Assembly: GCA_036504895.1 (NCBI GenBank)
Contig: DASXUJ010000088.1
Span: 1-64,000, forward strand
Length of the DNA stretch: 64,000 nucleotides
From: Syntrophorhabdaceae bacterium
GTDB taxonomy: Bacteria > Desulfobacterota > Syntrophorhabdia > Syntrophorhabdales > Syntrophorhabdaceae
Direction of reading: 5' to 3'
Positions 6,702 through 15,047 of the stretch are shown here, in pieces. The translations under genes were made by a program, and so were the position numbers. The stretch's first letter is position 1, and every line of letters starts with the position of its first letter. A model generated the notes under the pieces. That model worked only from the letters and a program-made list of their open reading frames with translations. It had not been told where the DNA came from and ran no database searches.

Positions 6702-7127
6702 CTATGTCCCCATCGCTAGCCCTATTTTTGAATCTTCAAAGAGAACATGACATAGCTTGGTAGGTGTTTTGGTTTCGCATTCCCAAATAATAATTATATG
6801 CCAACCCGAATTTTCAAGTTCTTTCTGTATCTTAGCGTCTCGTTCTATATTTTGGCGAAATTTGTCTTCCCAGAATTTTTTGTGAGTACCGGGAACGGTC
6901 GCTCTTTTACAGCCTGCATGTTGGTGCCAAAAGCAACCGTGCACAAAAATACAAATTTTATATTTGGCGAGCACGATATCCGGTTTACCGGGTAATTTCT
7001 TTGCGTGCAAACGAAATCGATATCCCATGGCATGAAGCAACCGACGCACCGTTAATTCCGGAGAAGTATTTTTTCCTCGCACCGCAGCCATATTGCTGGA
7101 TCGCTTGTCTGGAGAAAGTCTGTCCAT
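6702..7127 (-). CDS. vsr: Very short patch repair endonuclease (Vsr)
   Basis: Vsr nicks the T of T:G mismatches produced by deamination of 5-methylcytosine and normally accompanies a C5 methyltransferase. The 141-aa protein has the family signature MDRLSPDKRSSNMAAVRGKNT, the PD-(D/E)xK-like GKPDIV with the metal-binding Asp50, and the FVHGCFWHQH block (61-70) with conserved His and aromatic residues. It is the last gene of the four-gene operon read from about 13.0 kb, 5 bases after the receiver-protein gene. The matching methyltransferase is two genes upstream. Whether it is a repair enzyme here or has been recruited as an effector cannot be decided from sequence. Confidence 0.95.
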   Translation of the reverse strand: MDRLSPDKRSSNMAAVRGKNTSPELTVRRLLHAMGYRFRLHAKKLPGKPDIVLAKYKICIFVHGCFWHQHAGCKRATVPGTHKKFWEDKFRQNIERDAKIQKELENSGWHIIIIWECETKTPTKLCHVLFEDSKIGLAMGT

Positions 7128-7132
7128 TTTTG

Positions 7133-8905
7133 CTATCCTGAAAGTGCTTTGAAATTAATTCCTAAGCCAGGGCGAGAAAGAAAAATACCTATACGTTGAA
7201 GCAAGTTAAGTGCATATTCTGAGCGAAGTTGAGCTAGAGCAGATGCTTCGCTCCAACAAAGGCCTAGCACTCCATCTTTTTGGTCAATCCAACCTACGCT
7301 GAGATTTGTGCCTTCATGAAACCTTCCCCTATTGCCAGCCAGCATTTGCTTCCATTCGGGATTTGAAATTATATCGCCCTCTTTATGAATGCTGAAAGCC
7401 TCTATATTTCCTCCTATTTGAAGAAAAAGATAAATGTTCTTAGTAGCATTTCTTAAAGCATTATTACGCGTTATTCTGTGAAGCTGCACAGCTATAAATG
7501 GACGACAATCTGCAAGGCTTGAATCTAATGTCCGATCTGGAACCATATCGCAAGCAGGAGATAGGCAGATCCAAAGTCCTTCTTCCTGACCTATGATATT
7601 AAAAACATGGCCGGTTGTTAAATGTGATCTATCAATCGGTTTTGTGCTTGTAAACCAATTAAAGGACATCAGAGTGTCGGGCGAGCCAACATCCGTTTTG
7701 TCAAGACCGCACTCACTTATTACCTCACCCGTGTCCAATCTGGCAAAACTTGCATATAATCGTTCCGCAAAATCGCTGAGGGTTGATTGCAGTTGGTCCC
7801 CAAGCGCCTCCCAGTGCCTCTCTATTGTGTTATAAATAATGCCTTTTTGATCGACCGGATCAGGTTCGAGAAAATCACTTAACCATTCCACTTGAATATG
7901 TTTATTGCGGAGGATTGCCGCCTCAGCGATTACTCCATGTTGGTCAATTTCAGTTCTCATTTTAGCTAATAAAAGGCGGTGAGGCGACGGAAATGATGTT
8001 CTTATGGCCTCTAATAACTTGCACTCAAAGGATTCTGGAGAGTGCGATTTTGAGAGCACCGTCACAAATAACCGGTCGGTTCTTATCCAATTAATGTCAC
8101 CTGAATTGCTGACCTGAACCCCTCCAAGATCGTGCGAGGAAAACTTTTTCGTAAGTTTCCCCTGTTTTTGCAGTAAGAGCCACTTGGCGAGATCCCTTGG
8201 ATTAATTTTGACTTCTCTGGGTCTTGATTTCCAAAGGTCGATGATTCTCGATCCCTCGGGTGTCCCCAGGAGGGCGGCACAAATTTCTGTGTTTCGTGTT
8301 CTTACTTGCAGATATGTACTCTCCGAGATTTCTCTGTCAAGCAATGAGATGATTTCTTCTGTTTCATTTTCCCATTGCTCCAAAGCATTGTTCAATGATT
8401 CCTGTTCGTCCTCTGTTAAACGCAATGCAGCATCAGGATAAGACAGGCCTAATGCAATTTCGCGGACTACCATCTCAAGATCGTCTTTCGTATGGACAAT
8501 AACCAAATTAAAGTGATCGTTTTCAGCAAGCTTCCTCAATATGTTTATCGCCGCCTCGCCTTTTACTCCTAGACTGTCCTCGAGATTGTAATCTAGTATT
8601 AGTAAATCGGAATGATGCAGATGCGGCGCGAACACTTCCTCCTTTGCAACAGTTATTTTCCTACCGTCATGAACATCGACAAGCCACGGACTTTCTTTCT
8701 TTCTGGCAAATTCGAGAAGTTGACGAACATGCTCAACATCTTGATTTTTACCCTTCCAGGCACCTTCCAGGTTCAATTCTTTTGCAGCAAAACTATCCAA
8801 TGTAGGGTACTCATCATCAATGACAATAACCGTTCTAATCGGGTCAATAAAAACTTCTTGGATAAGTTGATCATAACCCACGATTGATTCCGTATAATTA
8901 CTCAT
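7133..8905 (-). CDS. Receiver-domain protein of a methylase/GHKL island
   Basis: The 590-aa protein starts MSNYTES at 8905, overlapping the GHKL gene by 8 bases (AAGGGG lies just upstream); a longer in-frame reading back to 8974 lies inside that gene. An N-terminal receiver domain spans about residues 22-160: VIVIDDE with acidic residues Asp30/Asp31, LLILDYNLED with the expected phospho-acceptor Asp105, and VIVHTKDD with Thr139. The remaining ~430 residues match no domain I recognise; a WICLSPACDMVPD segment near residue 470 stands out. There is no DNA-binding HTH. Position directly after a histidine kinase-like ATPase gene suggests that ATPase phosphorylates it. Confidence 0.75.
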   Translation of the reverse strand: MSNYTESIVGYDQLIQEVFIDPIRTVIVIDDEYPTLDSFAAKELNLEGAWKGKNQDVEHVRQLLEFARKKESPWLVDVHDGRKITVAKEEVFAPHLHHSDLLILDYNLEDSLGVKGEAAINILRKLAENDHFNLVIVHTKDDLEMVVREIALGLSYPDAALRLTEDEQESLNNALEQWENETEEIISLLDREISESTYLQVRTRNTEICAALLGTPEGSRIIDLWKSRPREVKINPRDLAKWLLLQKQGKLTKKFSSHDLGGVQVSNSGDINWIRTDRLFVTVLSKSHSPESFECKLLEAIRTSFPSPHRLLLAKMRTEIDQHGVIAEAAILRNKHIQVEWLSDFLEPDPVDQKGIIYNTIERHWEALGDQLQSTLSDFAERLYASFARLDTGEVISECGLDKTDVGSPDTLMSFNWFTSTKPIDRSHLTTGHVFNIIGQEEGLWICLSPACDMVPDRTLDSSLADCRPFIAVQLHRITRNNALRNATKNIYLFLQIGGNIEAFSIHKEGDIISNPEWKQMLAGNRGRFHEGTNLSVGWIDQKDGVLGLCWSEASALAQLRSEYALNLLQRIGIFLSRPGLGINFKALSG

Positions 8906-11870
8906 ATCTAGTCCCCTTGAAATCAATAACGAAATTTGCTCCCCGAAGCCTGCAGAAGCGGTTTTCGGTCGCATATCTGATCGTATGACCTCCTGCGGCT
9001 AGATTAGCACGGCAGAGGTAGAGGCCGACTCCTCGCCCACCGCGAATTTTTCTGGTAAAGAAAAGGGTAAACAGATTCTTTAGGTCGTCCTTCTCTACAC
9101 CGGGGCCGTCGTCGGCTACGACCACTTTTCCATCAATTATATCAAGTAAGATCTTTTTAGCACTTCCGCGTGACTGACTGACCCAATAAGCGGCATTATT
9201 AACTAAGTTGATAAAAACTGGAAAGATCCGGGACGCCTGTTCGTATACGCTAAATTTAAGAAATTCCGAAGTAGCGGTAAGAGAAATGTCTCGTCGTTCA
9301 AGAGATTCCCCCATAAATTCCTCGACATAATCAATGATTTTCTTCCCATCAATCCAATTTTTGGCTTTCTCACCCGAAAGCTTCAATGGAGAAAGGAAGC
9401 GGAGCCGATCAACCAGCGCATTGTGCGCGGAGCGGACCATCTCAAACGTTGGATTAACTCTTGCGGTCTCTGACAAATGTTCCAAACCTCGCGAAATAGT
9501 CATTTCGAGACCTTCAATTTCGTGACCTATAATTTCCACCGTTATGCCTAATTGCGCCAAAGCATTCAACCGATCGATTTCTTGACGCAAATCTGCCGAT
9601 TGTTCCATAGTAAAGGTGAGCATAGTCTCAATATCTATGCTTTCCTGCAAGCTTTTCAAAGTTGCAACATATGGTTCGAAAAGATCTGAATTTTCGCGGT
9701 CTTGCTTCTCCCTCTCAAGTTCAAGCTTATCGAGAACCTGACCGAGAGTTGTTCGGCCGTGTTCCAAGTCATCGAGCAACGGTAACATTTTGCTGTGGTA
9801 GCGCTTGTTCCTATCATCAATTAAGTCCGAAATTCGTTTGATCTCACTGCTCAGAATATCTTTTGTTTCAGCGGCCCATTTTCTAAGTCGGTTTTGCAAG
9901 TAAACAGCATTCCGACTAATCTCAGAGTACGCTACGTCTTTAGATGATTTCGGTTTAATTTTTTCCAGTCGATGAGAGACGGAGACGGTGAGCCTGGCAA
10001 TAAGATCACCGGAAAGGCTATCATGGCTCTTAAAATCTCTATAATCTGATTCCATCGTTCCCAAGACATTGGGTGCCGGGCCAAGTGCAAGCTGCGCTCG
10101 ATGTTCCTTCAGTTCTAATAGGCGCCGTCTTATAGCCAGCAACTCCACCTCGGTTGTAGGCAATGAATCGGCCTGAGCTGTCATTGCCAGTTGAGTAAGT
10201 TCGCGTTCTACTAATTGTATCTCAGGCAGATTAGTCATTAAGCGAGCACGAAATTCTCTTTTTCTTCGCGCTTTAAGCTTCGTTTGCGCTTCCTCGGCCT
10301 TCTGTTTTGCGTAATTTTCTTGAATTTCCGGAAGCACTTGATCCCTTATATTTGAATTGGTCCCATAAAAACGCCGCGCACTTTCCTTCAGAATATTTAT
10401 AATAATATCGCGAAATACTTTTGCTGCTTTGTTATCAATGATACCCTCACGACCTGCTTTATCGCGTAAATTGGGATTCTCCTGCCTAGTCAGCGCTACG
10501 CGACCAAAAAGACGCCGATAAGACCAGAATTCCCGTCCAAAATGTTTCGTTCTGCGTAACTCAATTTCAAAGAAATCATTATCTTCACGTCCATAGGGCA
10601 TGACACGAAGGCCATTTCTATAGACCAAGAATCCTCCGTATTTGATTGCCTGTTCCATGAGTTTTGCATGCACTTCGGCTGGATGGGTTGTGTTGTCGAT
10701 CCGTTGCTCAAACGTACCAATCCTTAGATGGAATGAACCTACTCGCGAATCCGAACGAGTGGGCACCGCATACGCAGGATTGATGATTATCTCACCTTCG
10801 AGCCATTTACCGAAGACCCTAACTTTTCCCCGAAAAATTCCATTAATATCAATTTCGCCTTCAAGAACGTGCTCCAGTTCCTCAAGATTTTCGTAATCGA
10901 ATTCTCGTTCATCTGAGATAATGGGGCGACTTAACGAACCCTCCCAAGCGGTAACAGAATACCTAAAATCATCCGCTCCGAAATATGTCACCGCCTCATG
11001 AGGATCAACAAAAGGGTCAGTGAAGTTCGACAGCGTTTGGAAAAGTTTATCTTTTGCACTTTGGAGCGCATCCCCTTCGGTTGCGGTCGCGGTTCCATAT
11101 AACTGTGCCTCCAGATCGTACGTAATATTGGCCATGAGCATTGCCGTTCCATGCGAAGACGCATTCGCCCAAACCGGCCAGTTCTCAAGATGTCTTTCAG
11201 TAAAGGTTGTCGCAATTAAAGTCTCTTCTATGGCCGCCTTAGTAGAAGGTCGCCCTTCTTTTTTTTCTAAGGCATCATATATTTCCCATCCAGATACAAT
11301 TCGTTCATCGCGAGCTCCGTCATTCCCGTTCCCCCATATGTTGCCCATCATTTTGTCGAATAAAATTCCGATGTGCATCCACACGTCATTCTTTTCATCG
11401 AATTCTACAACCGGTATTTCAATGTCCTGCAGGTAGAGGAATGGATTCTCAAAAAGACGCCAGTCAATAAGAGCAGCGACGAAAGATGTATTTTTGCGTT
11501 TTGAAACTAGAAAAAGTAGTGAACCGAGATAGGCTGATGAAAGACGACCTATCCCCTTTTGGCCTTGTTTTTCTCTATGAGGTAGACCATTGCGATCATC
11601 CGCTGGTACATCTAAATCATATGCCTTCGATTCTGTGCCAACTACAAGCCATTTTTCTACGAATTCCTGATAGCTCATGCCAAACCCGTTATCAAAAATG
11701 GCTGCTATGGGCACATTTCCATCAAGAATGTGCAGAGATGCTTCGCGAGCATATGCATCGTAGGCATTTTTCCAGAGTTCGGAAATTGCGGTAGGACAAT
11801 CAGCAATCTGTTCGCGACCGAGATGATCGATGGTTCTTGCCCTAGTTTTAAACGCTATTGATTCGACCAT
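8898..11870 (-). CDS. Dual GHKL ATPase: MutL/MORC-like N-terminus plus histidine kinase-like C-terminus
   Basis: The 990-aa protein has two Bergerat-fold modules. The first has ELWKN (Glu31, Asn35), DNGFGM (Asp60) and GQKGIGRL (103-110), as in MutL/Hsp90/MORC-type ATPases. The middle (about 510-770) is helical and charged, probably coiled coil. The second resembles a sensor kinase: an H-box-like GHEIEGL with His783, then INLVNNAAYW (about 887-895), DDGPGV (920-925), FTLFFTRK and GGRGVGLYL. GHKL proteins of the MutL/MORC type are known from comparative genomics to occur in restriction-modification neighbourhoods. Here it lies 8 bases after the cytosine methyltransferase gene and overlaps the receiver-protein gene. 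No membrane segment is seen, so it should be cytosolic. Confidence 0.8.
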   Translation of the reverse strand: MVESIAFKTRARTIDHLGREQIADCPTAISELWKNAYDAYAREASLHILDGNVPIAAIFDNGFGMSYQEFVEKWLVVGTESKAYDLDVPADDRNGLPHREKQGQKGIGRLSSAYLGSLLFLVSKRKNTSFVAALIDWRLFENPFLYLQDIEIPVVEFDEKNDVWMHIGILFDKMMGNIWGNGNDGARDERIVSGWEIYDALEKKEGRPSTKAAIEETLIATTFTERHLENWPVWANASSHGTAMLMANITYDLEAQLYGTATATEGDALQSAKDKLFQTLSNFTDPFVDPHEAVTYFGADDFRYSVTAWEGSLSRPIISDEREFDYENLEELEHVLEGEIDINGIFRGKVRVFGKWLEGEIIINPAYAVPTRSDSRVGSFHLRIGTFEQRIDNTTHPAEVHAKLMEQAIKYGGFLVYRNGLRVMPYGREDNDFFEIELRRTKHFGREFWSYRRLFGRVALTRQENPNLRDKAGREGIIDNKAAKVFRDIIINILKESARRFYGTNSNIRDQVLPEIQENYAKQKAEEAQTKLKARRKREFRARLMTNLPEIQLVERELTQLAMTAQADSLPTTEVELLAIRRRLLELKEHRAQLALGPAPNVLGTMESDYRDFKSHDSLSGDLIARLTVSVSHRLEKIKPKSSKDVAYSEISRNAVYLQNRLRKWAAETKDILSSEIKRISDLIDDRNKRYHSKMLPLLDDLEHGRTTLGQVLDKLELEREKQDRENSDLFEPYVATLKSLQESIDIETMLTFTMEQSADLRQEIDRLNALAQLGITVEIIGHEIEGLEMTISRGLEHLSETARVNPTFEMVRSAHNALVDRLRFLSPLKLSGEKAKNWIDGKKIIDYVEEFMGESLERRDISLTATSEFLKFSVYEQASRIFPVFINLVNNAAYWVSQSRGSAKKILLDIIDGKVVVADDGPGVEKDDLKNLFTLFFTRKIRGGRGVGLYLCRANLAAGGHTIRYATENRFCRLRGANFVIDFKGTRYE

Positions 11871-11878
11871 TCTATCCC

Positions 11879-13012
11879 TTATGTACCATTTGATAAATTC
11901 TGCGATAATCCTTTTTGGAGCCCCAGCAGAATGTTGCTAAGCAAAACCTCTCCAAGCTTAATGGGCACTGCATTCCCAATCTGCTCTCCCGCAGCTATCA
12001 ACCCACCCTTAAATGTAAACCAATCTGGGAAAGTTTGAAAACGAGCCGCTTGTCGGATGGTAATCCCATGATGTTCCGTCGGATGGACGAACCTTCCTTT
12101 GGATGGATTTACACAAGCCGTTGTCATGGTGGGCCCTGGTTGTAAGGGGTTTATCCTCCCGTACACGTCTTTATGTCCAGTATGATTTTTGTGACACGGC
12201 AAAGTACGTTTCGACTGAAGGCGACTTCCTCCATTTAATGGAGTTGACCTAAATAAATCAACAATTTCCAATGAATGCGTCATATGATAATTGTTCATAT
12301 CCCCCGGTGGTGGAGGCGTTGTGAAAATGTCTCTTGCCATTTGCCAAGGCTTTAACCGAGGATTTTCCCTTCTGGCCTTTTCGTTGCCACAGGTCGGTGA
12401 TGGTGGCCAAGTTGTACCGAATGGAACATCATTCCTCACCCCTAGGATAAAAACACGTTTTCTGCGTTGAGGTACTCCAAAGTCCCTTGCATCCAAAATT
12501 ACTGGATCATGAAGATAATAACCGGTCGTTCTAGCTTTTTCATAGAATTTATTCAGATATTCTTGATGACGAGGCCAGAGAATTCCGGGAACATTTTCCA
12601 TCAAAAAAACTTTGGGCTTCAGCCTATCTACAAATTCAAAGTATCGCAATATTAATTTATTTCTAGGATCATCAACACCGGCATCATTGAGTCGATGAAC
12701 GGAAAACCCTTGACAGGGTGGGCCACCCAAGACAATATCACAGCAGTTGCCTTCTGAAAAATGTTTTTTGGCAACAAAAGATGGGGAAACATCAAGTATG
12801 TCGCCGTATAGGCTAGGGATTTTGTTTGTTTTGATTAAATTATGTCTGTAGGTGTCACAGGCATGCCGGTTTTTCTCTATGGCAACCTGCACTTTGAGAC
12901 CGATATTCATTGCAGCAAGAGATAATCCTCCGGCACCTGCAAAAAGATCAATACAGCTGAAGTTCGTGTTCGTCAAATCTTCCGAACCTATAGAATGTAA
13001 GAAAAGTCTCAA
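11879..13012 (-). CDS. DNA (cytosine-5-)-methyltransferase
   Basis: The protein (up to 377 aa) carries the ordered C5-methyltransferase motifs: CIDLFAGAGGLS (motif I, SAM binding), GGPPCQGFS with the catalytic Cys100 (IV), MENVPG (VI), DFGVPQRRKRVF (VIII) and a C-terminal IGNAVP (X). The target-recognition region lies between VIII and IX; the target site cannot be read from it. The start is uncertain: TTG at 13012 has no clear ribosome-binding site, and TTG at 12976, just before the motif I region, has GGAAGA close upstream. It heads the island operon. No classical restriction enzyme gene is adjacent. Confidence 0.95.
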   Translation of the reverse strand: MRLFLHSIGSEDLTNTNFSCIDLFAGAGGLSLAAMNIGLKVQVAIEKNRHACDTYRHNLIKTNKIPSLYGDILDVSPSFVAKKHFSEGNCCDIVLGGPPCQGFSVHRLNDAGVDDPRNKLILRYFEFVDRLKPKVFLMENVPGILWPRHQEYLNKFYEKARTTGYYLHDPVILDARDFGVPQRRKRVFILGVRNDVPFGTTWPPSPTCGNEKARRENPRLKPWQMARDIFTTPPPPGDMNNYHMTHSLEIVDLFRSTPLNGGSRLQSKRTLPCHKNHTGHKDVYGRINPLQPGPTMTTACVNPSKGRFVHPTEHHGITIRQAARFQTFPDWFTFKGGLIAAGEQIGNAVPIKLGEVLLSNILLGLQKGLSQNLSNGT

Positions 13013-13718: not shown

Positions 13719-15047
13719 ATGAAGATTCCGGAAAAACCTCCGCTGAATTGGCGCAAATATATCTCTTCCGAGATTCTCGCCTCTCCCCCTCGTGCTCTGC
13801 AGGAGGCTATCCGGAAAGGCAATCGGGATTATATATATTGGGATAAGTTTAAGTATCTCGTACCGGAGGGAATTTCCCGTGAATCCGCCTGGGCGGCACT
13901 CAAGCTGTCCCGAACGCTCAACGCAAGGGACCTTCCCCTGGTAAACCGCGACACCAATAATAACTTCACCTATTGGCAGCCCGACCGCGTTCTGGAATAT
14001 CTTTATCAGATAAATCGGGATGCTTCGGGAGCTGTCATCACCGGGAATCTCGCGGTACAAGGGAGTGAAAGAAAACTGTTTCTTCTTAATTCGATCATGG
14101 AAGAGGCAATTGCCTCCAGTCAGATCGAGGGAGCCGTTACTACGACAAATCAGGCAAAGGAGATGCTTCAACGCGGCGAAAAACCAAAGGACCGGTCGCA
14201 GCAGATGATTTACAATAATTACGCGACCATATCGAGAATCAAAGACTTAATCGAATTTCCTGCATCCCCTGTCCTGCTCAAGGAGCTGCAGGAGTCGATG
14301 ACCAGGGATACTCTCGATAGTAAGGCCCATGCGGGAAGGTTCCGCACCGCATCGGACAAGCCCGTCTATGTCATGAATTTTCGTGGGGATATTCTCCACG
14401 TGCCTACGCCGCCCGAACATATTGAGGAGGAAATCGGAAAACTGTGCGACTTTGCCAACCGGGCTCTGGAGGAGTTCATCCATCCCGTCATCAAAGGTAT
14501 CGTTCTTCATTTCTGGCTCGCCTATATCCACCCCTTTCACGACGGGAACGGCAGGACAGCCCGAGCCTTGTTCTATTGGAACATGCTGCGAAATCATTAT
14601 CCTCTGTTTGAATATATTTCCATTTCAAAATCTATCCTTAGATCGCGCGCAGACTATTACCGGTCCTTTCTCTATTCCGAGACGGACGAAGGGGACATGA
14701 CTTATTTCATCGCCTTTAATCTCAAGACCATCTCTGCCGCCCTCGATCAGCTCCATGAATACCTTGAGCGGAAAGGAGTGGAAAGACAGGTTTCCGCCCG
14801 GGAGTTTTCCGCCTTCCCCGGCCTTAACCATCGGCAGCAGGAGGTCCTTCGGCGGGTACTCGAAGATCCGGGGGTTGAGATCACCCTCAAGGACCTCATG
14901 CAGACATACCACGTAGTGCATCAAACCGCACGCACGGATATTTTAGACCTCACCAATGCGAAGCTGCTCGAAAAAAAGGTAAGGGGAAAGAGGTTCTATT
15001 TTGTGGCAGCACAAGATCTGGCAGCCCGTCTGGCCCACGCTTCCTGA
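13719..15047 (+). CDS. Fic family protein (AMP-transferase) with C-terminal winged helix
   Basis: Fic enzymes transfer AMP or another nucleotide part from a nucleotide to a Ser/Thr/Tyr of a target protein. The 442-aa protein has an inhibitory-helix motif Ser133-x3-Glu137-Gly138 on the N-terminal side of the core (class II, self-inhibited) and a complete active-site loop His271-PFHDGNGRTAR282. The last ~80 residues (HRQQEVLRRVLED onward) look like a winged-helix DNA-binding domain. GGGAG lies 8 bases before the ATG. The gene has no antitoxin partner, consistent with the built-in inhibitory helix. Two dyads precede it and one follows, so it probably represses itself. Direct repeats on both sides suggest the gene came with, or between, repeat elements. 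Confidence 0.93.
   Translation: MKIPEKPPLNWRKYISSEILASPPRALQEAIRKGNRDYIYWDKFKYLVPEGISRESAWAALKLSRTLNARDLPLVNRDTNNNFTYWQPDRVLEYLYQINRDASGAVITGNLAVQGSERKLFLLNSIMEEAIASSQIEGAVTTTNQAKEMLQRGEKPKDRSQQMIYNNYATISRIKDLIEFPASPVLLKELQESMTRDTLDSKAHAGRFRTASDKPVYVMNFRGDILHVPTPPEHIEEEIGKLCDFANRALEEFIHPVIKGIVLHFWLAYIHPFHDGNGRTARALFYWNMLRNHYPLFEYISISKSILRSRADYYRSFLYSETDEGDMTYFIAFNLKTISAALDQLHEYLERKGVERQVSAREFSAFPGLNHRQQEVLRRVLEDPGVEITLKDLMQTYHVVHQTARTDILDLTNAKLLEKKVRGKRFYFVAAQDLAARLAHAS

Follow-up and report, generated by a model that had tools for sequence, protein, structure and literature searches.

The closest described relatives of the locus analysed here are two-component-like systems that combine HEF_HK and Response_reg_2 proteins (PF19191/PF19192; Bellieny-Rabelo et al. 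2021, PMC8011034). In the available text of that report, the group 1 architecture is the main one, found in 174 of 222 HEF_HK proteins, Response_reg_2 proteins are described without any other known domain, and control of restriction–modification (R-M) systems is proposed as the function. The kinase described here also shares its N-terminal GHKL and S5 domains, and an R-M context with methylases and Vsr, with the paraMORC/MORC ATPases, which have been tied to R-M systems (Iyer et al. 2008, PMC2292703). At the C-terminal end those ATPases carry a nuclease, a TIR or another domain, in place of the histidine kinase core found here. In VcSduA, a paraMORC3 protein of the Shedu type, defence depends on a residue of the GHKL ATPase (PMC12137116). 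A related N-terminal GHKL ATPase is also found in the BbrUII/HgiDII restriction enzymes (NCBIfam NF050001).

The window, a stretch of 64,000 nucleotides from a Syntrophorhabdaceae genome, encodes a double-GHKL kinase (8898–11870, minus strand) that by its sequence is a further member of the HEF_HK/Response_reg_2 family, which entered Pfam and the literature in 2021. It is the second gene of a four-gene cassette (6702–13012, minus strand) made up of a methyltransferase, the kinase, a response regulator (RR) and Vsr, in that order. The C5-cytosine DNA methyltransferase (11879–13012, minus strand, start codon uncertain) has PPCQ and ENV motifs and matches Pfam DNA_methylase at 3e-60 and NCBIfam dcm above its cut-off. 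The Vsr mismatch endonuclease (6702–7127, minus strand) matches Pfam Vsr at 1e-30 and NCBIfam vsr at 150.6 bits, against a cut-off of 97.85. Neighbouring genes lie 8 and 5 bases apart at two junctions and overlap by 8 bases at the third; a scan for promoters and terminators gave matches at chance level. All the features that define the described family are present: HEF_HK, HATPase_c_3 together with HATPase_c, an adjacent Response_reg_2 protein, and a C5 methyltransferase with Vsr. Domain order, the RR neighbour, the methyltransferase 5′ and Vsr 3′ of the RR all agree with the 2021 description, with no essential difference. The initial annotation had treated the kinase gene without these operon partners, although it is from them that most of the functional clues come. 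A gene for a SoFic-related Fic-domain protein starts on the opposite strand, about 0.7 kb from the methyltransferase (13719–15047, plus strand; PADLOC E 9e-48); a Fic gene is also found near the cassette of a Pseudoalteromonas plasmid (L034).

The kinase reading frame starts with ATG and encodes 990 amino acids followed by a stop. Pfam, alignments and an AlphaFold2 model compared by VIA-align divide the protein into an N-terminal module of HATPase_c_3 and S5 (about residues 1–500), a helical middle of ~270 residues (about 505–770) and a C-terminal part with HEF_HK/DHp, including His783, followed by HATPase_c. The Pfam matches all exceed their gathering cut-offs, with HATPase_c_3 on residues 27–136 (7e-15), HEF_HK on 773–830 (7e-7, 30 bits against 24.1) and HATPase_c on 879–984 (3e-12). 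Every motif listed in the initial annotation was found at its position: E31-LWKN35, D60NGFGM65 and G103QKGIGRL110 in the first ATPase; the H-box G782HEIEGL788; and the N-box N888-LVNN892, G1 D920-DGPG924, F-box F937F938 and G2 G945RGVG949 in the second. H783-E784 supplies the core histidine and acidic residue expected of HEF_HK, and the H, N, G1, F and G2 boxes of two-component histidine kinases are all present together with their DHp–CA fold. The same architecture was once thought rare by the initial annotation, a view that does not survive comparison with the 174 of 222 HEF_HK proteins that share it in the available text of PMC8011034.

The AlphaFold2 model was built from 17 homologues and has a mean pLDDT of 78. 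Its residues 8–511 join a GHKL ATPase to an S5 domain, as in paraMORC/MORC proteins, and align by VIA-align with MORC3 (Z 16.7, 327 residues, 4.3 Å); the N-terminal module also aligns with SMCHD1 (Z 16.6). Long, nearly unbroken helices cross residues ~507–797, in keeping with the long helical middle predicted from sequence. The C-terminal module adopts the DHp plus HATPase_c fold seen in HK853 and CpxA, and residues 762–987 align with HK853 at Z 16.8 (213 residues, 5.5 Å). The presence of a MORC/MutL-like GHKL module at one end and a histidine kinase-like one at the other, as first described, is thus confirmed by domain matches and modelled folds alike. The local geometry around His783 and in parts of 430–480 is unreliable, because pLDDT falls below 50–60 there, and the ATP-lid regions are likewise of low confidence. 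A MutL orthologue was considered and rejected, as TIGR00585 reaches 24.3 bits over 44 residues against a cut-off of 180.

Conservation of the kinase was assessed in an alignment of 32 rows, which combines relatives from 19 loci of other genomes with more from an even sample of Pseudomonadota. As L001 and L078 represent one locus, 31 of the rows are distinct; two are weak relatives with a length of about 740 amino acids. His783 is present in 32 of 32 rows (31 distinct, the two weak relatives included). In the first ATPase, the catalytic residues Glu31, Asn35, Asp60 and Lys105 occur in every row but one; nearly all rows keep the N and G boxes of the second ATPase. When the two weak relatives are omitted, E31, N35, D60, K105, H783, N888 and N892 are kept in all 30 rows (29 distinct). 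HATPase_c_3, HEF_HK and HATPase_c occur together in 17 of 17 close homologues. The initial annotation had named a variable His783, or a C-terminal fold other than HATPase, as grounds for abandoning its kinase assignment; the assignment stands, because the histidine is invariant and the module models as DHp plus HATPase. The invariant H, N and G residues rule out a degenerate pseudokinase. Between this kinase gene and a congener's copy, changes are mostly synonymous (pN 0.11, pS 0.77), indicating strong purifying selection, which together with the Pfam scores and folds rules out an artefact of chance or composition.

The response regulator (7133–8905, minus strand), defined from Pfam, alignments and a model, comprises Response_reg_2 and a C-terminal output domain. 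It starts at the ATG at 8905, within the 8-base overlap with the kinase gene, while the longest open reading frame begins at 8974. Response_reg_2 scores 62 bits against a cut-off of 27, and the modelled core is a REC fold (Z about 10, 119–125 residues, 3.1–3.2 Å, against receivers such as PorX and CheY) in which a long insert separates strands 4 and 5. The VIA-align rows for this model covered the receiver only. The receiver residues are D30, D31, D105, T139 and K286. Asp30, Thr139 and the phospho-site position Asp105 are invariant in 33 of 33 RR rows (32 distinct), with Asp31 in 32 rows and Lys286 in 26.

The output domain (~402–590) carries a C-x4-C-D ... R-x-G pattern in which Gly432, Cys452-Asp453 and Gly580 are invariant in the alignments and Cys447 and Arg578 nearly so. 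It has no Pfam model, and PADLOC has no model for either the RR or this domain. Foldseek found no match to its fold with E below 0.001 in PDB and BFVD. Its profile retrieved nothing usable from PDB sequences, Pfam or PADLOC and, from PHROGs, only families of unknown function. Pfam and profile searches of the RR found none of the known DNA-binding output domains, and no nuclease motif was recognised in the RR or the kinase. As far as the searched literature shows, including the available text of the 2021 report, the domain has not previously been described.

The kinase and the RR are closely linked across genomes. In the 19 loci, where kinase relatives are full or nearly full length and 36–80% identical, the RR always adjoins the kinase. 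Response_reg_2 was found in 11 of 398 evenly drawn Pseudomonadota genomes, each time with HEF_HK within about 1 kb; three further HEF_HK matches in this sample are shorter proteins without Response_reg_2. The kinase and RR distance matrices correlate at r = 0.97, against a largest shuffled value of 0.48, and those of kinase and methyltransferase at r = 0.70, bearing in mind that co-inheritance alone can produce a mirror-tree correlation. The methyltransferase is adjacent in 17 of the 19 loci and in 10 of the 11 sampled Response_reg_2 genomes; none was found beside cassettes L004, L072 and L037. Vsr is often, though not always, present among the loci. Clustering of the flanking reading frames revealed no gene family other than the cassette's own in more than 2 of 19 loci, and no nuclease gene besides Vsr was common to the 19 loci or the sampled genomes. 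A restriction enzyme in a neighbouring gene was rejected on this count. The effector, if there is one, would then most simply lie in the kinase or the RR; either protein could also conceal a nuclease.

Several loci depart from the usual arrangement. The C5 methyltransferase is 3′ of the RR, not 5′ of the kinase, in alphaproteobacterial loci (L018:12760-13920, L019:12724-13944 and L035:12766-13971). The kinase gene of L011 (L011:7965-12178) is split by an insert of ~1.2 kb after codon ~118, with methyltransferase, RR and Vsr intact, and the kinase reading frames of L016 and L019 look frameshifted. On a Klebsiella plasmid (L036:4971-7241), a kinase relative seems to be broken into three reading frames 3′ of an N-6 methylase gene.

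The cassette has a GC content of 43–45% in surroundings of mostly 49–62%, and similarity to the congener's copy spans only 6754–12956, with different flanks. Because of this foreign GC content and the confinement of homology to the cassette, the four genes were probably transferred as one unit. A phage origin was considered and rejected: the matches of this kind came to no more than two phage records, both weak, plus four IMG/VR contigs.

Searching with the output domain recovered it in proteins without Response_reg_2, several of which come from a shorter, divergent clade. In this clade the kinase (712–731 amino acids) has an H-box, HEGR(R/K)PL or a near variant, between HATPase_c_3 and HATPase_c, and the adjoining RR of 331–362 amino acids joins the same output domain to an ordinary receiver. 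Kinases of the two clades can be aligned over their full length (hhalign probability 100, E 2e-49), and the output domains of the RRs match at probability 95 (E 2e-8). At the sequence level, the short clade is what ties the output domain to canonical receivers and H-boxes. A short kinase–RR pair adjoins a C5 methyltransferase on Campylobacter pTet-type plasmids and in Fusobacterium (L101, L102 and L103), and 41 Campylobacter plasmid records match the short-clade regulator; on an Enterobacter plasmid with the short system no methyltransferase was found nearby. A search among relatives with alignment A5 recovered mostly ordinary receiver domains. Stand-alone relatives of the output domain, with an LTQ(S/D)CDL motif, no Pfam match and 207–235 amino acids, sit beside unrelated genes (L114:6883-7587, minus strand; L115:6882-7505, plus strand). 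The L115 relative is preceded by an uncharacterised 253-residue protein without a significant Pfam match. The output domain, the short clade, which the available text of PMC8011034 does not mention, and the lack of a separate nuclease are what the present analysis adds to the described family.

An intact kinase core and an intact receiver, together with a methyltransferase and a MORC-like module, are most simply read as a device that senses DNA lacking methylation and relays the signal by phosphotransfer to the output domain of the RR. It is established for MORC/MutL-type GHKL–S5 modules that ATP makes them dimerise and that they engage substrates, either DNA or protein. That a DNA or conformational clamp may control the kinase, as the initial annotation suggested, is a reasonable hypothesis, with which the fold, the invariance of the ATPase residues and the link to a methyltransferase all agree. 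We give a probability of roughly 55% to the kinase being the sensor-kinase subunit of a DNA-methylation-linked HEF_HK/Response_reg_2 cassette that acts by the following relay. The C5 methyltransferase would mark host DNA, and Vsr would repair the T:G mismatches that arise from deaminated 5-methylcytosine. The N-terminal GHKL–S5 module, dimerising on ATP binding as in MORC/MutL, would close with the helical arm on unmarked DNA. The helices would transmit this closure to the DHp/CA kinase; phosphorylated by it, His783 would hand the phosphate on to Asp105 of the RR. The freed output domain, with its C-x4-C-D ... R-x-G pattern, may be the effector, stopping either the invader or the cell it has infected; this step is a guess, because neither a fold nor a catalytic motif has been recognised in the domain.

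These steps of DNA sensing, signal transfer, phosphotransfer and effector action are what we infer from the protein sequences and models; the literature searched yielded no experiments on autophosphorylation, phosphotransfer, DNA binding or phage restriction. Also counting against the scheme are the stand-alone relatives of the output domain beside unrelated genes and the few cassettes for which no neighbouring methyltransferase was found. Detocs is a defensive two-component system in which a kinase–regulator pair acts against phage, with sensor and effector domains that differ from those here. To our knowledge, Detocs has neither a MORC-like module nor a methyltransferase. In VcSduA, a GHKL ATPase is proposed to control the effector in anti-phage defence, which is comparable to the relay scheme, but there the effector is a fused PD-(D/E)xK nuclease rather than the end point of a phosphorelay (PMC12137116).

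It is possible but unlikely that the protein works as a BbrUII/HgiDII-type restriction enzyme driven by ATP. Its N-terminal GHKL module would then cleave unmethylated DNA directly, together with a partner, and the kinase-like end would be a second conformational ATPase without phosphorelay. The adjacent cognate C5 methyltransferase and Vsr would suit such an enzyme, and the kinase N-terminus matches both NF050001 (E 4e-14) and the PADLOC REase_II models. However, the NF050001 match covers only residues 12–129, about 120 residues of the kinase, and reaches 52 bits against a cut-off of 550, far short of the full-length match expected of that family, so membership in that family was rejected. The invariant His783 and RR phospho-site would be needless in a non-signalling pair, and the lack of a recognised nuclease motif in either protein also argues against cutting.

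An ordinary cytoplasmic two-component system, regulating the methyltransferase or other genes according to nucleotide or DNA status, appears quite unlikely. The histidine kinase and REC modules with conserved phospho-sites are those of such a system, and the proposal of R-M control in the available text of PMC8011034 points the same way, but no DNA-binding output domain of a known type is present in the RR, cassette and methyltransferase spread together as one unit, and a MORC-like module would be an unusual ligand sensor. A selfish or addiction cassette, in which the kinase–RR pair kills or stalls the cell once host methylation is lost, the module thereby perpetuating itself, and phage defence is secondary, is improbable: its mobile, patchy occurrence on plasmids and genomic islands, a methyltransferase that could serve as antidote, and an L011 kinase gene interrupted beside an intact methyltransferase and RR would agree with it, but direct evidence of toxicity is wanting and strong purifying selection fits defence and addiction alike.

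Judging from sequence and gene context, the family that includes the methylation-linked relay proposed here is probably a self/non-self DNA alarm. More tentatively, a single plan may be common to two deeply diverged clades, HEF_HK/Response_reg_2 and the short HisKA-like/REC clade of Campylobacter and other plasmids: a check by His–Asp phosphorelay, in which a MORC-like clamp would test for the cytosine methylation made by the cassette itself and the kinase would release the RR effector domain. The output domain and the short clade offer a concrete target for further work, with conserved residues and plasmid-borne natural examples for comparison. If the mechanism holds, bacteria would be able to act on DNA methylation status by phosphorelay rather than by direct cleavage, and the cassette would provide a tractable bacterial model for how MORC ATPases couple DNA to signalling.
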